The translations under genes and the position numbers were made by a program. A model generated the notes under the pieces. That model saw only the letters and a program-made list of their open reading frames with translations, had not been told where the DNA came from and ran no database searches. Below are positions 23,527-45,338 of a stretch of DNA of 64,000 nucleotides, in pieces. Positions within the stretch are counted from its first letter, which is position 1. Each line of letters opens with the position of its first letter. The DNA is from Candidatus Chloroploca sp. Khr17. GTDB lineage: Bacteria; Chloroflexota; Chloroflexia; Chloroflexales; Chloroflexaceae. The stretch is from assembly GCF_004138165.1 (NCBI RefSeq), contig NZ_RYFF01000030.1, forward strand, positions 1 to 64,000, given 5' to 3'.

Positions 23527-23796
23527 GGCCTCAACCTTGGTTTGCCAAGACTGTGCCTATTGTAACATATGGCCTTTACCACAACATAATTCCTTGTGAA
23601 AAAAGGTCTTTATTATGAATAGTAGCAAGCCCTAAACATTGGTTTACCTCGTCAGAATGGCAAATAGCATCTGAGGATGAACCTTGCACAGGTTTTGCAT
23701 ATACACATGCAATGTTGACTATAGTGCTATAATCTTGTTGCACGAACGTAGTTTGCAGTCTGCACTACGAAACCTGTCTGGAAGTGTGGGTGGTCT
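23527..23796. other. Regulatory region upstream of bchM
   Basis: 270 bases between the divergent sensor gene and bchM with no coding potential. The half next to bchM is AT-rich and holds a TATAAT at 23728-23733, without a well-spaced -35 hexamer, and the palindrome described separately. Confidence 0.5.
23748..23768. promoter_or_regulatory. Palindromic operator candidate upstream of bchM
   Basis: The 21-bp site reads GTAGTT, TG, CAGTCTG, C, ACTAC. It matches 18 of 21 bases of the site at 24541-24561 before bchH. It lies 14 bases after TATAAT and 28 bases before the bchM ATG, a position where a bound repressor would block initiation or early elongation. The factor is unknown. The site differs from the TGT-N12-ACA motif of PpsR/CrtJ. 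Confidence 0.65.
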
Positions 23797-24477
23797 ATGG
23801 ATCTGGTTCGGCACAAGGCTCAGTTGCGCCAGTATTTCAATGGAGTAGGTTTTGAACGCTGGTCGGCAATTTATGGCCAGGCCGAACTTTCACCGATTCG
23901 ACGGTCGATTCGGCAAGGCCATACCACCATGCTTGCCGTTGCTAGTCAGTGGCTCGACGCAACGGCTATGCCGGCTGATGCGACAGCCCTTGACGCAGGT
24001 TGTGGCACCGGGCTCTTTACCCTCGAGCTAGCCCGCCGTGGTTTTCAGGTCACGGCGACTGACCTGGCCCCTCAGATGGTCGCGGCAACCGCCGAGGCCG
24101 CAACTCAGGCAGGCCTCGCTCAGCGCGTCACGACTCGCGTGGCCGATGTCGAAGAGTTGCAGGAACGCTATGACGTGGTTGCCTGTTTCGATGTCCTCAT
24201 TCACTATCCAGCCCAACCCTTTGCCTTGATGTTGGCCCAGTTGTCCAATTGCTGCGAACAGACTCTCCTCTTTACCTATGCACCTCACAGCACGCTGCTC
24301 GCTGCACTCCATCGTGTTGGTGGGTTTTTTCCCCGCAGTCAGCGTCGCACGACTATCCAGATGATCCCTGATGCGCTGGTGCGCTCAACCCTTGCTGATG
24401 CCGGAATGAAGGTGTGTCGCGCCCAGCGCATTAGCTGTGGTTTCTATCACGTAACGCTGGTGCAGGCCCAGCGCTAG
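23797..24477 (+). CDS. bchM: Mg-protoporphyrin IX O-methyltransferase
   Basis: 226 residues, SAM-dependent class I methyltransferase with motif I LDAGCGTGLF (about 65-74). The N-terminal YFNGVGFERWSAIYG and the downstream SIRQGHTTML are characteristic of BchM/ChlM. The C-terminus has CGFYHVTLVQ, typical of the family end. It methylates the ring C propionate of Mg-protoporphyrin IX, the step after magnesium chelation and before ring E formation. Position directly before bchH supports this. The palindrome 28 bases upstream suggests regulation together with bchH. Confidence 0.93.
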   Translation: MDLVRHKAQLRQYFNGVGFERWSAIYGQAELSPIRRSIRQGHTTMLAVASQWLDATAMPADATALDAGCGTGLFTLELARRGFQVTATDLAPQMVAATAEAATQAGLAQRVTTRVADVEELQERYDVVACFDVLIHYPAQPFALMLAQLSNCCEQTLLFTYAPHSTLLAALHRVGGFFPRSQRRTTIQMIPDALVRSTLADAGMKVCRAQRISCGFYHVTLVQAQR

Positions 24478-24540
24478 CCGGGGTTCCGTCGGATTGATAG
24501 ACCTTTTCAGGCGAAATAATCATTGGCTTAAAATGTTGCT

Positions 24541-24561
24541 GTAGTTCACAGTCTGAACTAC
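24541..24561. promoter_or_regulatory. Palindromic operator candidate upstream of bchH
   Basis: The 21-bp site reads GTAGTT, CA, CAGTCTG, A, ACTAC. Around its central base, 9 of 10 pairs are complementary. It is 28 bases before the bchH ATG at 24590, the same distance as the related site before bchM. A TAAAAT (24529-24534) lies just upstream and could be a -10 element. Confidence 0.7.
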
Positions 24562-24589
24562 GATCATCCTCTCGGGGAAGGGTTTGCGC

Positions 24590-27500
24590 ATGCGGATTAT
24601 CTTTCTCACCATTGATGGCAATCACGCCGCGGCTCTGCACGCTGCCGCTGCCCGGATCAAGGCCGAGCACGGCGTTGAGGTGCATGCCGCCTGTTACGAC
24701 GCCGCTTCGCTTCGCGATGAGTCGGGTTGGCAGCGCCTTGAGCGTGATCTCAAGGGGGCTGCGTTGGTCTTTGGGGCACGCCTTTTTGGTGAGGAGTATG
24801 TGCGCCCCCTCGAGCGTTTGCTTGGCGCGGCGTCGTGTCCGGTGCTGGTTATTACGTCCAATCCGGCGCTGATCCGTCTGACCCGCATCGGCAAGTTTAG
24901 CCTTGCCCCCCAAGCCGAAGAGTCGGGCGGCATGCTGCGTCAGTGGGTCAAAAAGCTTCGTCCTCAGGGTGGGGCCGGCGAGGCTCGTCGCCAACTGGCG
25001 GTGCTCCGCAATCTCAGCAAGGTGCTCAAGCTCATTCCCGGCAAGGCGCGTGATCTCTATACTTATATTGTTGCGCATCAGTACTGGACGAATAGCTCGC
25101 CCGAGAATGTCTATCGCCTCGTCTGTCTCTTGATCGAGGCGTATGTGCCAGGCTATAAGGGTAAGTTGCCCGTGCTCGATCCTGTGACCTACCCCGACCA
25201 GGCGCTGATCCATCCTGATGCCCCGGCCCCCTTTGCGACGCTTGAGGAGTATCAGAAGTGGCGGCGTTCGCTGCGAGGCAATAAGCGGGTTGGTGAGCAG
25301 GGCAGTGTGGGGATTCTGGCGATGCGTACGGTGGCGCTCAGTGGCAATACGGCCCACCTCGATGCGCTGGTACGTTCACTTGAAGCCCGTGGCATCGAGG
25401 CGCGGATGGCCTATGCGACCGGCCTTGATATGCGGCCTGCCATCACGACCTTCTTTCAAGCCCACGGCCATAGCAAAGCGAAAAAGGCTGCCCCTACGAC
25501 CAATGGACACGCTGCGACTGTCGATCTCCTGGTGAATGCGAGTGGTTTTGCCCTCGTCGGTGGCCCCGCCGAGAGCCGTCCCGCCGATGCCCGCGCTGCG
25601 CTCGGCGCACTCGATGTTGGCTATCTTGCGCCGGTGCCGCTTGCCTTTCAGCGGGTGGAGGATTGGCGGAGTGACTGGGCCGGGCTGTCACCGGTGCAAG
25701 CGGCACTGAGTGTGGCGGTGCCTGAACTCGAAGGGGCCGCTGATCCGCTGGTCTATGGTGGGCCCACCGCGGCTGGTGATGGCTTTGTCCCGGCGACGGC
25801 TGAGGTTGAGTTGCTCGCCGGGCGGATTGCCCGCCGTTTGGCGCTGCGCCGTACCCCTAACCATGCCAAACGACTCGCTCTGGTGCTCTTTAGCTTTCCC
25901 CCTAACCTGGGTAACCTCGGCACCGCTGCTTACCTTGATGTCTTCCGTAGTCTCCATAAGCTGCTGCAGGCGCTCAAGGAGGAAGGCTATCAGGTGGAGG
26001 TGCCTGACGATGCCGAAGCCCTGCGCAATCTGGTGGTTGGCGGCAATGCGCTGGCGCACGGGGCTGATGCCAATGTGGCGGCGACCTTCCCCGTCGAACA
26101 CTATATGCGCCTCTTCCCCAGTTATACCGAGATTGAGCCATGCTGGGGGCGGGCACCGGGTGAGTTGTTGAACGATGGGCGCCGCTTCCGCATCCTCGGG
26201 CGGCAATTGGGCAATATCTTTATTGGGGTGCAGCCGCCGTTTGGCTACGAGCGCGATCCGATGCGGATGCTGATGGCTCGTGATGCGGCCCCCAACCATG
26301 CTTTTGCCGCTTTTTATACCTGGTTGCGCCATACGTTTGACGCGCATGCCGTGGTGCATATCGGTACCCACGGGGCGCTCGAATTTATGCCCGGCAAGCA
26401 GGTTGGCCTCGGTGCTGATGATTGGCCTTCACGCTTGATTGGCGAACTGCCCAACTTCTACCTCTATAGCGTCAATAACCCGAGTGAGGCCGCGATTGCC
26501 AAGCGTCGCAGTGCGGCTACACTCGTCAGTTACCTGGTGCCCCCCTTGCAGCAGGCCGGTCTCTACAAGGGGCTGCGTCAACTTAAGGATAGTATCGACG
26601 CCTATCGCCAGCGGCCCGACCCCGGGATGCTCGACGTGATCCGTGAGCAGGCCGCTAAACTGGGCATGCAGCAGGCCAAGGCGACCTTGCAGCACGGTGT
26701 TGGTGAGGCGCACGCGACGCTTGAGGTTGCGCCAGATACCTACCTGGCCGCGTTGAGCCACGAGTTGCTGCAGATCGAAGAGCGCATGATCCCTGCTGGC
26801 CTGCACGTCTTTGGGCAACCCCCCGAACCAGTGGAGATGGTTGATCTGCTGAGTCTGACCGCCACCTTCCATCAGTTCCCGTTGCGGGGTGCGCTCGTGA
26901 CCTTCCCAGCGTTGATCGCACGCAGCCTCGGCCTGGAATATGCTGCCCTCCGCGAACGCCTCGCAACCGATCTTGAGGCACAGACTGACTGGCAGCGGAT
27001 CGAAGGACTTGGCAAGGACGCGATCCGTCGGTTTGTCGAGGGGGGGCCGTTTCACGTGCCCGGTCTTCATCATCGCGATCTTGATCCGCTCGCTGATTTC
27101 CTTGGCGATCTCCTCAATCGCCTCAGTAGCGATAATGAACTCGCCGGTTTGTTGCACGGGCTCGAGGGTGGCTTTGTGACGCCATCGCCGAGCAACGATA
27201 TTGTGCGCGATCCGTCGGTGGTGCCAACGGGGCGCAATGTCTATAGCCTCGATCCATCGCGTGCGCCAACAGCCCAGGCGGTCGAGAAGGCCGAGCGCCT
27301 GACCAATGAGTTGCTGGCTCGTGCCGTTGCTGATGCTGGTGCCCCGCCCGAAAGTGTGGCGGTGGTGCTCTGGGGGAGTGACAATCTCAAGAGTGACTGC
27401 GAAGGCGTGGCGCAGGTGCTGGCCCTGATGGGTGCACGCCCGGTGCCTGACGAACTCGGCAACATTTCGGATGTCACCCTCATTCCGCTCATTGAACTGG

Positions 27501-28423
27501 GTCGCCCCCGCGTTGACGTGGTCGTGACGGTGAGCGGCATCTTCCGCGATCTCCTTGGGCATCAGATGCGCCTGATTGACAAGGCGGCCCGTCTGGCTGC
27601 CTGTGCCGATGAGCCCCTCGAGGGCAACGCGGTGCGGCGCCACGCGCTGGCAACCGCTGCCGAACTTGGCCTTCCTCTGGAAGAGGCCGCTATCCGCGTC
27701 TTTGCCAATGCGCCTGGCAGCTATGGTGCCCATATTAACCACATGGTCGAGAGCGGTTCGTGGGAAGATGATGAGCAATTGAGCGAGACCTTCCTCAGTC
27801 GCAAGGGTTTCACGATGGGCAAAGGTGGCGAATGGAACGACTCGCGCCCGTTACTCGAAAAAGCCCTCGCTAATGTCCAGGTTACCTTCCAGAATGTCGA
27901 TAGCTTCGAGGTGGGTATCTCGGATATTGACACCTATTACGAGAGCCTGGGCGGCGTTACCAAGAGCATTGAGCATCTGCGTGGCGAGCGCCCCTCGATC
28001 CTTGTCTCGGACGCGGTCAGCACGGGGGCGAACCGGGTCGGCTCGCTAGACCAGATGGTACGCTTGGAGACGCGGGCCAAGTTGCTCAATCCGAAGTGGT
28101 ACGAAGCAATGCTGGCCCATGGCTACGAAGGTGCCCGCGAAATCGAGGCGCGCCTGAACAATACCTATGGCTGGAGTGCGACGACCAATGCGGTGGAGGG
28201 CTGGGTCTACCAGGGGGTTGCCGAGACGTACGCACTCGACGACGAGATGCGCGAGCGCCTGGCGAAGTTGAACCCGCACGCTGCGGCTGGCATGGTTCGC
28301 CGTCTCCTTGAAGCCAATGGCCGCGGTTTCTGGGATGCGGATGAAGCAACCATCGAGCGGCTGCGCACGCTCTATGAGGATCTGGAAGACCAGCTAGAGG
28401 GTATCGGAGTAGCGCAGGCATAA
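24590..28423 (+). CDS. bchH: Magnesium chelatase subunit H
   Basis: 1277 residues from the ATG at 24590; GGGAAGGG before it decides against the TTG six bases earlier. The length and the CobN/BchH domain match the porphyrin-binding large subunit of Mg chelatase. Characteristic segments include VHIGTHGALEFMPGKQVGL near residue 590, GSYGAHINHMVESGSW near 1045, SRKGFTMGKGGEW and GGVTKSIEHLRG. BchH holds protoporphyrin IX while BchI and BchD hydrolyse ATP to insert Mg2+; bchI and bchD are not in this window. Chloroflexales often have several H-subunit paralogues (BchH, BchS, BchT), so assignment to the main one is likely but not proven. Gene order bchM-bchH-hemN puts chelation at the branch point. 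Confidence 0.94.
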   Translation: MRIIFLTIDGNHAAALHAAAARIKAEHGVEVHAACYDAASLRDESGWQRLERDLKGAALVFGARLFGEEYVRPLERLLGAASCPVLVITSNPALIRLTRIGKFSLAPQAEESGGMLRQWVKKLRPQGGAGEARRQLAVLRNLSKVLKLIPGKARDLYTYIVAHQYWTNSSPENVYRLVCLLIEAYVPGYKGKLPVLDPVTYPDQALIHPDAPAPFATLEEYQKWRRSLRGNKRVGEQGSVGILAMRTVALSGNTAHLDALVRSLEARGIEARMAYATGLDMRPAITTFFQAHGHSKAKKAAPTTNGHAATVDLLVNASGFALVGGPAESRPADARAALGALDVGYLAPVPLAFQRVEDWRSDWAGLSPVQAALSVAVPELEGAADPLVYGGPTAAGDGFVPATAEVELLAGRIARRLALRRTPNHAKRLALVLFSFPPNLGNLGTAAYLDVFRSLHKLLQALKEEGYQVEVPDDAEALRNLVVGGNALAHGADANVAATFPVEHYMRLFPSYTEIEPCWGRAPGELLNDGRRFRILGRQLGNIFIGVQPPFGYERDPMRMLMARDAAPNHAFAAFYTWLRHTFDAHAVVHIGTHGALEFMPGKQVGLGADDWPSRLIGELPNFYLYSVNNPSEAAIAKRRSAATLVSYLVPPLQQAGLYKGLRQLKDSIDAYRQRPDPGMLDVIREQAAKLGMQQAKATLQHGVGEAHATLEVAPDTYLAALSHELLQIEERMIPAGLHVFGQPPEPVEMVDLLSLTATFHQFPLRGALVTFPALIARSLGLEYAALRERLATDLEAQTDWQRIEGLGKDAIRRFVEGGPFHVPGLHHRDLDPLADFLGDLLNRLSSDNELAGLLHGLEGGFVTPSPSNDIVRDPSVVPTGRNVYSLDPSRAPTAQAVEKAERLTNELLARAVADAGAPPESVAVVLWGSDNLKSDCEGVAQVLALMGARPVPDELGNISDVTLIPLIELGRPRVDVVVTVSGIFRDLLGHQMRLIDKAARLAACADEPLEGNAVRRHALATAAELGLPLEEAAIRVFANAPGSYGAHINHMVESGSWEDDEQLSETFLSRKGFTMGKGGEWNDSRPLLEKALANVQVTFQNVDSFEVGISDIDTYYESLGGVTKSIEHLRGERPSILVSDAVSTGANRVGSLDQMVRLETRAKLLNPKWYEAMLAHGYEGAREIEARLNNTYGWSATTNAVEGWVYQGVAETYALDDEMRERLAKLNPHAAAGMVRRLLEANGRGFWDADEATIERLRTLYEDLEDQLEGIGVAQA

Positions 28424-28447
28424 GTGGCATAAGATGAGGAGTTTGTG

Positions 28448-29806
28448 ATGAACCGTGTGCGCGTGACGCCCGAACAGATCGATCACTACAATAAGCCCGG
28501 CCCCCGCTACACCAGTTACCCAACGGTACCTGTCTGGGATCAGACTTTTGGTGAGGCTGACTATCGTGAGGCGCTGGCTGCGGTTGCAACCCAGCCTGAT
28601 GATGGACTATCGGTCTATGTTCACTTGCCTTTCTGTGCCGAGCGCTGTGCTTACTGTGGCTGCAACGCAACCGTGACCCGCCACCCCCATGTGGTCGATG
28701 CCTATCTTGATCGTGTCGAGCGCGAGCTTGCGCTGGTGGCGCCCCAACTTGGTGGGCGACGCCAGGTGGTGCAGTTGCACTGGGGTGGTGGCACCCCGAA
28801 TTTTCTGAACGAAGCCCAGACGCGGCGCTTGATGGCGATGCTTGACGAGGCCTTTCTTATTGACCGCAATGGCGAAGTTTCGCTTGAGATGGATCCCCGG
28901 ATCGGTAGCCGCGCCCAGGTTGAACTCTACCGTGAGCTTGGCTTCAATCGGGTGAGCCTCGGTGTGCAGGATATTGACGCGCAGGTACAGGTTGCGATTG
29001 GGCGGATTCAGCCTTTCAGCCAGACCGAGGGCCTCTATGAAGCCTGTCGTGAACTTGGCTTTGCGAGTGTCAACGTTGATCTCGTCTATGGCCTGCCTTA
29101 TCAGACGGCTACGGTCTTTGGACGGACGCTTGATGCCATTATCGGGTTGCGGCCTGACCGGTTAGCCTGCTTTAGCTATGCGCACTTGCCCCAATCGCGC
29201 TCTAATCAGAAGCAGGTTGATACCAATGGCCTGCCCGAACCCTACGCCAAGTTTGGGCTCTTCCAGATGGCGATCGAGCGCCTGACTGATGCGGGCTACG
29301 ATTGGGTCGGGATGGATCATTTTGCACTTGAGGCTGATGAAATGGCCGTGGCCGCCCGTGAACTCAGGCTGCACCGCAATTTTATGGGCTATACCACCCG
29401 CCCGGCGATGCACATGGTGGCCTTTGGGGTCAGTTCGATCGGTGATATGGCTGGCTACTATGTGCAAAATGATGTCGGTCTGGGGCGCTATCAGAAGAGT
29501 CTTGATGCGGGCAAATTGCCGGTTGTCCGGGGTATGAAGCTCACCGAAGATGATCAGCGGCGGCGAGCGGCGATCACCCATCTGATGTGCAACCTCGAAT
29601 TGCCTTTTGCGATGGCGGCTGATGACGCCATGCACGCATCCTTCTTGCGGGTGGCCCGGTACGCTGATGAAGGCCTGGTCATTGTCCATCCTGATCGGCT
29701 TGTCGTGACCCCGCTCGGGCGGTATTTTGTTCGCAATCTCTGCATGGAACTGGATGCCCATCTGTCGCAGACGGCTGGTCGTCCGATCTTCTCCAAGACG
29801 GTGTAA
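28448..29806 (+). CDS. hemN: Oxygen-independent coproporphyrinogen III oxidase
   Basis: 452 residues from the ATG at 28448, with AGGAG 6 bases upstream. It is a radical SAM enzyme with C63, C67 and C70 for the iron-sulfur cluster and C72 next to it (CAERCAYCGC), as in true HemN. The N-terminal GPRYTSYPT motif, typical of genuine HemN and absent from many HemW proteins, supports the assignment. The enzyme decarboxylates two propionates of coproporphyrinogen III to vinyl groups without oxygen, giving protoporphyrinogen IX. It starts 24 bases after bchH. Confidence 0.94.
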   Translation: MNRVRVTPEQIDHYNKPGPRYTSYPTVPVWDQTFGEADYREALAAVATQPDDGLSVYVHLPFCAERCAYCGCNATVTRHPHVVDAYLDRVERELALVAPQLGGRRQVVQLHWGGGTPNFLNEAQTRRLMAMLDEAFLIDRNGEVSLEMDPRIGSRAQVELYRELGFNRVSLGVQDIDAQVQVAIGRIQPFSQTEGLYEACRELGFASVNVDLVYGLPYQTATVFGRTLDAIIGLRPDRLACFSYAHLPQSRSNQKQVDTNGLPEPYAKFGLFQMAIERLTDAGYDWVGMDHFALEADEMAVAARELRLHRNFMGYTTRPAMHMVAFGVSSIGDMAGYYVQNDVGLGRYQKSLDAGKLPVVRGMKLTEDDQRRRAAITHLMCNLELPFAMAADDAMHASFLRVARYADEGLVIVHPDRLVVTPLGRYFVRNLCMELDAHLSQTAGRPIFSKTV

Positions 29807-44841: not shown

Positions 44842-44902
44842 TTTAGCTTCTGGCTGGGGTTTTGCGAGCCGTAGGCCCGCAAAACCCCAGCCAGAAGCTA
44901 AA
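44842..44902. terminator. Perfect 25-bp hairpin closing the hem block
   Basis: Arms at 44842-44866 and 44878-44902 are exactly complementary, and the loop has its own GCC/GGC pairs. It lies between hemL and the convergent Rrf2 gene, touching the latter's 3' end, and probably serves both. Confidence 0.65.
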
Positions 44903-45338
44903 TATAGTACATCACATTGCCCGTACGCTGGCGCTTGCGCTGACACAGATCATCAAGCGTCGTTTCGCGGAGCATCCGTTCCATCCGCGTGCGGAGATCA
45001 ACCCAGACTTCACTCACTACTTCGTGATCCTCAGGCACAGTAGGCGCCAGATCCTCACGTGTTGGTTCATCAGGCAACAGTGGGCCTTCAAGCGCGGTCA
45101 GGATCTCAAAAAGATTGATTGTCTCGGGGGCACGGGCGAGCATATGGCCGCCCTGCGGCCCGCGGACGCTCTCGATCAAGCCGGCGCGGCGCATCGTGAT
45201 CAGCAACTGATTCAAATAGTTGACCGGAATCCCCTGACGGTTGGCAATTTCTTCGCTCTGCACAAGACCTTTGCCATATTGCTGGGCTAGATCAAAGAGT
45301 GCCCGCAGGCCATAATCACCCTTGCTTGAAATACGCAT
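44898..45338 (-). CDS. Rrf2-family transcriptional regulator
   Basis: 146 residues. The winged-helix start MRISSKGDYGLRALFDLAQ and the VNYLNQLLITMRRAGLIESVRG recognition region, followed by GGHMLAR, identify Rrf2. IscR, NsrR and RsrR use three Cys ligands around residues 90-110 for an iron-sulfur cluster; here that loop has none, and the only Cys is near residue 131. It is therefore more like cluster-free members such as CymR. It sits convergent to the tetrapyrrole block, whose enzymes include a radical-SAM protein, but no target is shown. The last residues overlap the hairpin. Confidence 0.88.
   Translation of the reverse strand: MRISSKGDYGLRALFDLAQQYGKGLVQSEEIANRQGIPVNYLNQLLITMRRAGLIESVRGPQGGHMLARAPETINLFEILTALEGPLLPDEPTREDLAPTVPEDHEVVSEVWVDLRTRMERMLRETTLDDLCQRKRQRTGNVMYYI

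Follow-up and report, generated by a model that had tools for sequence, protein, structure and literature searches.

A 21-base palindrome before bacteriochlorophyll genes is very probably the docking site of a still unidentified Chloroflexota photosynthesis regulator

INTRODUCTION

In purple bacteria, PpsR/CrtJ represses photosynthesis genes through one palindromic operator, TGT-N12-ACA, that stands before many bch and related genes. Long inverted repeats likewise serve as operators of heat-shock genes, namely HAIR, read by HspR of the MerR family (CTTGAGT-N7-ACTCAAG), and CIRCE, read by HrcA (TTAGCACTC-N9-GAGTGCTAA). For green filamentous phototrophs, the transcription factors of photosynthesis genes had not been identified as of 2020, genetic tools are missing, and a PpsR homologue is absent from Chloroflexus and Roseiflexus (PMC7308566).

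Here we analyzed a 64,000-nucleotide stretch of Candidatus Chloroploca sp. Khr17 (contig NZ_RYFF01000030.1; hereafter the window), in which a sequence-only reading had proposed that two similar 21-bp sites before bchM and bchH serve as the operator through which a single regulator controls Mg-branch entry.

RESULTS

Two operator-like sites precede bchM and bchH

Inspection of the window confirmed both sites as they had been described (Table 1). GTAGTTTGCAGTCTGCACTAC and GTAGTTCACAGTCTGAACTAC differ at 3 of 21 positions (18/21 identical), the latter is palindromic in 9 of 10 pairs, a -10-like element lies ahead of each, and both stand at the same distance from the ATG, with a TTG alternative start for bchH at 24584 in the open reading frame listing. 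TGT-N12-ACA is absent from both sites, as the sequence-only reading had also held. Its impression that the window contains no additional copy agrees with our scan: at up to three mismatches, just these two sites were recovered (plus one on its own reverse strand), against a chance expectation of 0.01 sites per window (mean of 100 shuffles at the same threshold).

Table 1. Features of the bchM-bchH-hemN region, in window coordinates
Feature	Position	Strand	Remarks
Predicted extended -10 of bchM promoter	23725..23733	+	TGCTATAAT; 14 bp upstream of operator copy 1; spacing conserved across genera
Operator copy 1 (putative)	23748..23768	+	GTAGTTTGCAGTCTGCACTAC; 28 bp upstream of bchM; conserved in relatives
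bchM, Mg-protoporphyrin IX methyltransferase	23797..24477	+	Pfam PF07109
Predicted -10 of bchH promoter	24529..24534	+	TAAAAT; 6 bp upstream of operator copy 2 (inferred)
Operator copy 2 (putative)	24541..24561	+	GTAGTTCACAGTCTGAACTAC; 28 bp upstream of bchH ATG; conserved in Chloroploca relatives L019 and L020
bchH, Mg-chelatase large subunit	24590..28423	+	Pfam PF02514/PF11965
hemN-like oxygen-independent coproporphyrinogen oxidase	28445..29806	+	starts 21 bp after bchH

Transcription of bchM is predicted to start near 23740, a position inferred from the -10 element and not mapped. Because the hemN-like gene follows bchH so closely, the two likely share an operon, which would probably place hemN under operator copy 2; in Chloroflexus, hemN has an operator copy of its own, in agreement with this arrangement. 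The window's bchM shares 98% identity with its counterparts in Ca. Chloroploca mongolica and Ca. Chloroploca asiatica. A TTGAC element that precedes the -10 hexamer by only about 9 bp (TTGACTnTnnTGnTATAATC, about 23715-23733) is strongly conserved before bchM in relatives and is perhaps a second control site.

The sites outline a probable bacteriochlorophyll regulon

Using a looser pattern (up to two mismatches), we recovered two further copies from the same genome. The third copy of the core, GTAGTTTACAGTGCGTACTAC, matches fully and stands about 40 bp ahead of bchN on contig C148; GTAGTTCTAAGTCTGTAGTAC, with one mismatch, precedes a PucC-family gene. The latter gene is followed by bchF (NCBIfam TIGR02020) and then by BchC-like and BchX-like genes (Pfam), whose names are inferred from family and gene order. 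Three of the four exact GTAGT-N11-ACTAC sites of this genome precede bch genes.

Over ten genomes, 36 of 47 exact sites precede tetrapyrrole or bch operons, a count in which the few sites without inspected context were scored as misses. Random scatter away from photosynthesis genes, which would have refuted the operator proposal, was thus not seen. The targets comprise bchM, bchH (or orf-acsF-bchH, where orf is a small gene of unknown function), bchN, pucC-bchF-bchC-bchX, bchJ, a radical-SAM gene with bchE, and hemN-hemY. The proposal of a single operator is therefore supported, and its restriction to Mg-branch entry proved too narrow, given the sites before bchN, pucC-bchFCX, bchJ, the bchE operon and hemN. 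The additional products (BchN, BchF, BchJ, BchX/BchC-like, hemN-hemY) are coherent in function, and two criteria of a bacterial regulon are met: the same site before several co-functional operons, and cross-genome conservation above chance.

Target arrangement varies among lineages. In Chloroflexus, the site lies about 25 bp before hemN of hemN-hemY; in Roseiflexus-like genomes, it precedes a TIGR04053 radical-SAM gene that is followed by a BchE-like gene; and in family f4, it precedes PucC genes heading the bchN cluster. Taxonomically, the regulon is found in Chloroflexaceae and in phototrophs of two other families; beyond these, a single bchM site occurs in Candidatus Chlorohelix, which has a type-I reaction centre.

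Two neighboring genes deserve separate mention. The TIGR04053 radical-SAM/SPASM gene of Roseiflexus-like loci (L100-L103, L109) lies between bchJ and the BchE-like gene with the operator before it, and its product is possibly a tetrapyrrole enzyme. A conserved protein of about 110 aa is encoded just before acsF and bchH (L090:4954-5286; homologues, e.g., L278:12271-12606); it has one N-terminal hydrophobic stretch and a SEHEHFHxHVD motif, matches no Pfam or NCBIfam family, and is a possible partner of the oxygen-dependent cyclase.

The palindrome is conserved among relatives

The pattern GTAGTNNNNAGTNNNNACTAC is present in 43 of 82 genomes of the order. Most of these are Chloroflexaceae, mostly with one to three copies each, and a reversed control pattern gave very few matches. 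Nearly all Chloroflexaceae matches lie shortly upstream of bchM, bchH, orf-acsF-bchH, bchN or a PucC-family gene. Exact matches in non-phototrophs of the order (G042, G049, G051) fall in unrelated genes.

We also approached the question from the genes, collecting BchM loci by PF07109 and BchN loci by TIGR01279 and testing their upstream regions for all 1024 five-base half-sites at 21 spacers (0-20). GTAGT with spacer 11 ranked first in both sets, at 30 of 48 bchM loci (next-best palindrome, 12) and 14 of 30 bchN loci (next-best, 5), and at any other spacer this half-site gave at most one match in these regions. Since the genomes are related and not independent, such locus counts are not probabilities; the relevant comparison is with the controls within the same regions. 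Conservation before bchM and bchH (or the acsF-bchH operon), which the sequence-only reading would have needed, was accordingly found.

Copies in the gene-based scan were nearly always either exact or wholly missing, and the scan returned no site for its negative controls, the operon-internal bchB and acsF directly. As a point against the operator reading, bchM has no site in family f4 or in some few Chloroflexaceae, in part because it is there internal to a bchN operon. Judged from sequence, and without binding or expression data on the site, GTAGT-N11-ACTAC is probably a real, family-wide operator. At Chloroflexus bchM loci (L116, L128, L135 and others), two operator copies stand about 80 bp apart upstream of the gene. 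In a genome of genus g34 (G073; L104), no BchM or BchN passed the family cut-off, and a retained PucC-family gene has an operator-like site 22 bp before it.

Outside the order, a phylum-wide search for BchM (400 genomes drawn) yielded one hit, in a Candidatus Chlorohelix-like genome (G335). There, an exact site, GTAGTATCAAGGTCGCACTAC, lies about 140 bp upstream of bchM-bchH; base counting puts the chance of one match in 250 bp at roughly 2 in 10,000. Any reach beyond Chloroflexales rests on this one genome.

Site anatomy favors a DNA operator over an RNA hairpin

To describe the site, we built a logo from 84 distinct sites in 50 gene-by-genus groups, with the outer five bases on each side fixed by the search pattern. 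The resulting core is GTAGT-nnnn-A-n-T-nnnn-ACTAC, in which A10 (49.6/50, weighted) and T12 (46.8/50) are near-invariant, and C7 and G15 are preferred within the site. The symmetry is not complete: positions 6/16 read TT in 21 groups versus the mirror image AA in 3 (P = 0.0003), and position -5 is a purine in 43 of 50 groups. This oriented bias counts against a plain symmetric operator, which would not need it.

In 20 of 26 strong cases, mainly at bchM and bchN, the site follows a strong extended -10 (TGnTATAAT) by 12-15 bp and would thus cover roughly +6 to +26, although starts have not been mapped. In the window, the gaps are 14 bp (bchM) and 6 bp (bchH). At other targets, the -10 is weaker or absent, and none is clear at the orf-acsF-bchH sites or the second Chloroflexus bchM site; these sites, including the one that separates bchM from the acsF operon, may be operon-internal, which counts against the operator reading.

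The presumed location in the transcribed leader, in some cases directly before the ribosome-binding site, raises the alternative that the element acts as RNA, as a small mRNA-leader hairpin that is bound by protein or affects stability or translation. Such a hairpin would accommodate the gene-oriented asymmetry at positions 6/16 and -5, and both window copies can fold into one. However, the stem sequence is invariant rather than covarying; its outer pairs, being invariant, are silent on the matter, and the inner pairs occur at or below shuffle expectation, with 6/16 pairing depleted. Folding of the Chloroploca bchN copy does not give the hairpin, and the site has no Rfam match. Moreover, the distance to the start codon ranges from 11 to 162 nt, whereas that to the strong -10 stays near 12-15. 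We therefore consider an RNA element improbable. A DNA operator is favored on these sequence patterns, with the oriented bias left unexplained.

No regulator candidate is well supported

Counting against the operator reading, no regulator has been identified and no autoregulated factor was found: none of the matches read places an exact motif right at a transcription factor's own promoter, and no conserved HTH gene is common to all bch neighborhoods read. We also rejected a NarL-type response regulator encoded next to bchJ in family f4, because no other lineage had it among the loci read.

The best lead, yet a weak candidate, is a MerR-type protein encoded directly before pucC (C137:48567-49181; also L320:1501-2118), with a Chloroflexus counterpart at G007:C1:4251852-4252460. 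This protein of about 205 aa carries an HTH_17/MerR N-terminus, whose HTH resembles BldC and HspR, whereas the fold of its C-terminal domain is unknown. HspR, too, recognizes a 21-bp palindromic operator. It is present as a single copy in nearly all Chloroflexaceae, its gene adjoins pucC in 22 of 27 Chloroflexaceae loci examined, and homologues adjoin hemA in other families. Nevertheless, non-phototrophs of both the order and the class also encode this protein, its own promoter carries no site, and the protein was not detected in the Candidatus Chlorohelix-like genome, even though bchM there has a site; that genome is scored 95% complete, and its single site could be chance. Without any evidence of binding, we regard it as unlikely that this protein reads the palindrome.

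Less likely again is an Rrf2-family (CymR-like) protein, encoded beside hemL at the end of the window's tetrapyrrole block (44898-45338). Rrf2 operators are often long palindromes, and in genus g16 the gene lies beside bchJ (and bchE; L240, L258, L260, L261). It is found, however, in 77 of 82 genomes, non-phototrophs included, with mostly unrelated neighbors elsewhere and no exact site at its own promoter.

Binding by the B12-dependent light repressor CarH/LitR is the faintest prospect: CarH-like genes occur in these genomes, one of them with an exact core site upstream (G050; L372), and bchM is light-induced (PMC7308566), but CarH binds tandem 11-bp direct repeats (nnnnTnnACAn; PMC9304148) rather than a 21-bp inverted repeat, and the common homologue also occurs in a non-phototroph. 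A relative of the G050 gene is the second CarH/LitR-like gene of a Roseiflexus-like genome (G064; L302), which lies near a reaction-centre-like (PufL/PufM-like) gene.

DISCUSSION

Sequence analysis shows the element, its conservation among relatives, the genes that it precedes and its placement after the -10. In our judgment, it likely serves a single dedicated transcription factor as a DNA operator, through which the Mg branch is coordinated in phototrophs of the Chloroflexales and probably of other groups as well. Protein binding itself is inferred. The factor would probably bind as a homodimer. Its site closely follows the -10 and would fall within or close to the first 26 bases of the transcript, so that the bound protein would most likely block promoter escape or early elongation. 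Its role as a repressor is thus an inference, made because a protein placed just after the start site is best suited to block promoter escape.

The signal is likewise inferred. The genome G006, which we take to be that of C. aggregans, carries exact sites before bchM (two), the acsF operon, hemN and bchN, together with one unrelated site, and has no exact site at bchF, bchX or bchC. In mat transcripts of C. aggregans, the members of operons that carry a site (bchM, acsF, bchH-III, bchN, bchB and bchL) share one diel pattern, and bchF, bchX and bchC follow a different one (PMC8004040). As only two operons are involved, this match is supportive and not decisive. In C. aurantiacus, light induces bchM 25-fold in air, with similar behavior in oxic and anoxic light, and also induces photosynthesis genes outside the regulon, such as pufL and csmM (PMC7308566); the site is therefore not the sole light switch.

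We found no description of the motif in the literature, subscription-only work lying outside the search. The 21-base palindrome is very probably, in the absence of binding data, where a still unidentified Chloroflexota photosynthesis regulator docks, and a precise 21-bp bait combined with a defined regulon opens a route to its biochemical isolation without genetics. Only tentatively do we suggest that the palindrome is an ancestral Chloroflexota bacteriochlorophyll operator, older than the split between type-I (Chlorohelix) and type-II reaction-centre lineages, and that its reader belongs to a regulator family with no link to photosynthesis so far. If the Chlorohelix site proves genuine, pigment-synthesis control persisted through a change of reaction-centre type.

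Comparison with known systems sets the element apart in each case. It resembles the PpsR/CrtJ system in placing one palindromic operator before many bch genes, but it does not match the PpsR consensus and lies downstream of the -10. With CarH/LitR it would share repressor-based light control of pigment genes, whereas that operator consists of direct repeats; PpsR-type and CarH-type operators thus fit in neither sequence nor layout. The half-site of RccR (RpiR family), TGTAGT/ACTACA, contains GTAGT/ACTAC, but RccR reads 15-bp and 28-bp sites (spacers 3 and 16) in carbon metabolism (PMC5489143). Here only spacer 11 occurs, the pattern TGTAGT-N3 or N16-ACTACA is not met, and the flanking T/A is not needed. 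Although both differ from our element in sequence and in their heat-shock targets, HAIR is likewise a 21-bp inverted repeat, read by winged-HTH proteins, and CIRCE is likewise a long inverted repeat in the transcribed leader that serves as a DNA operator.
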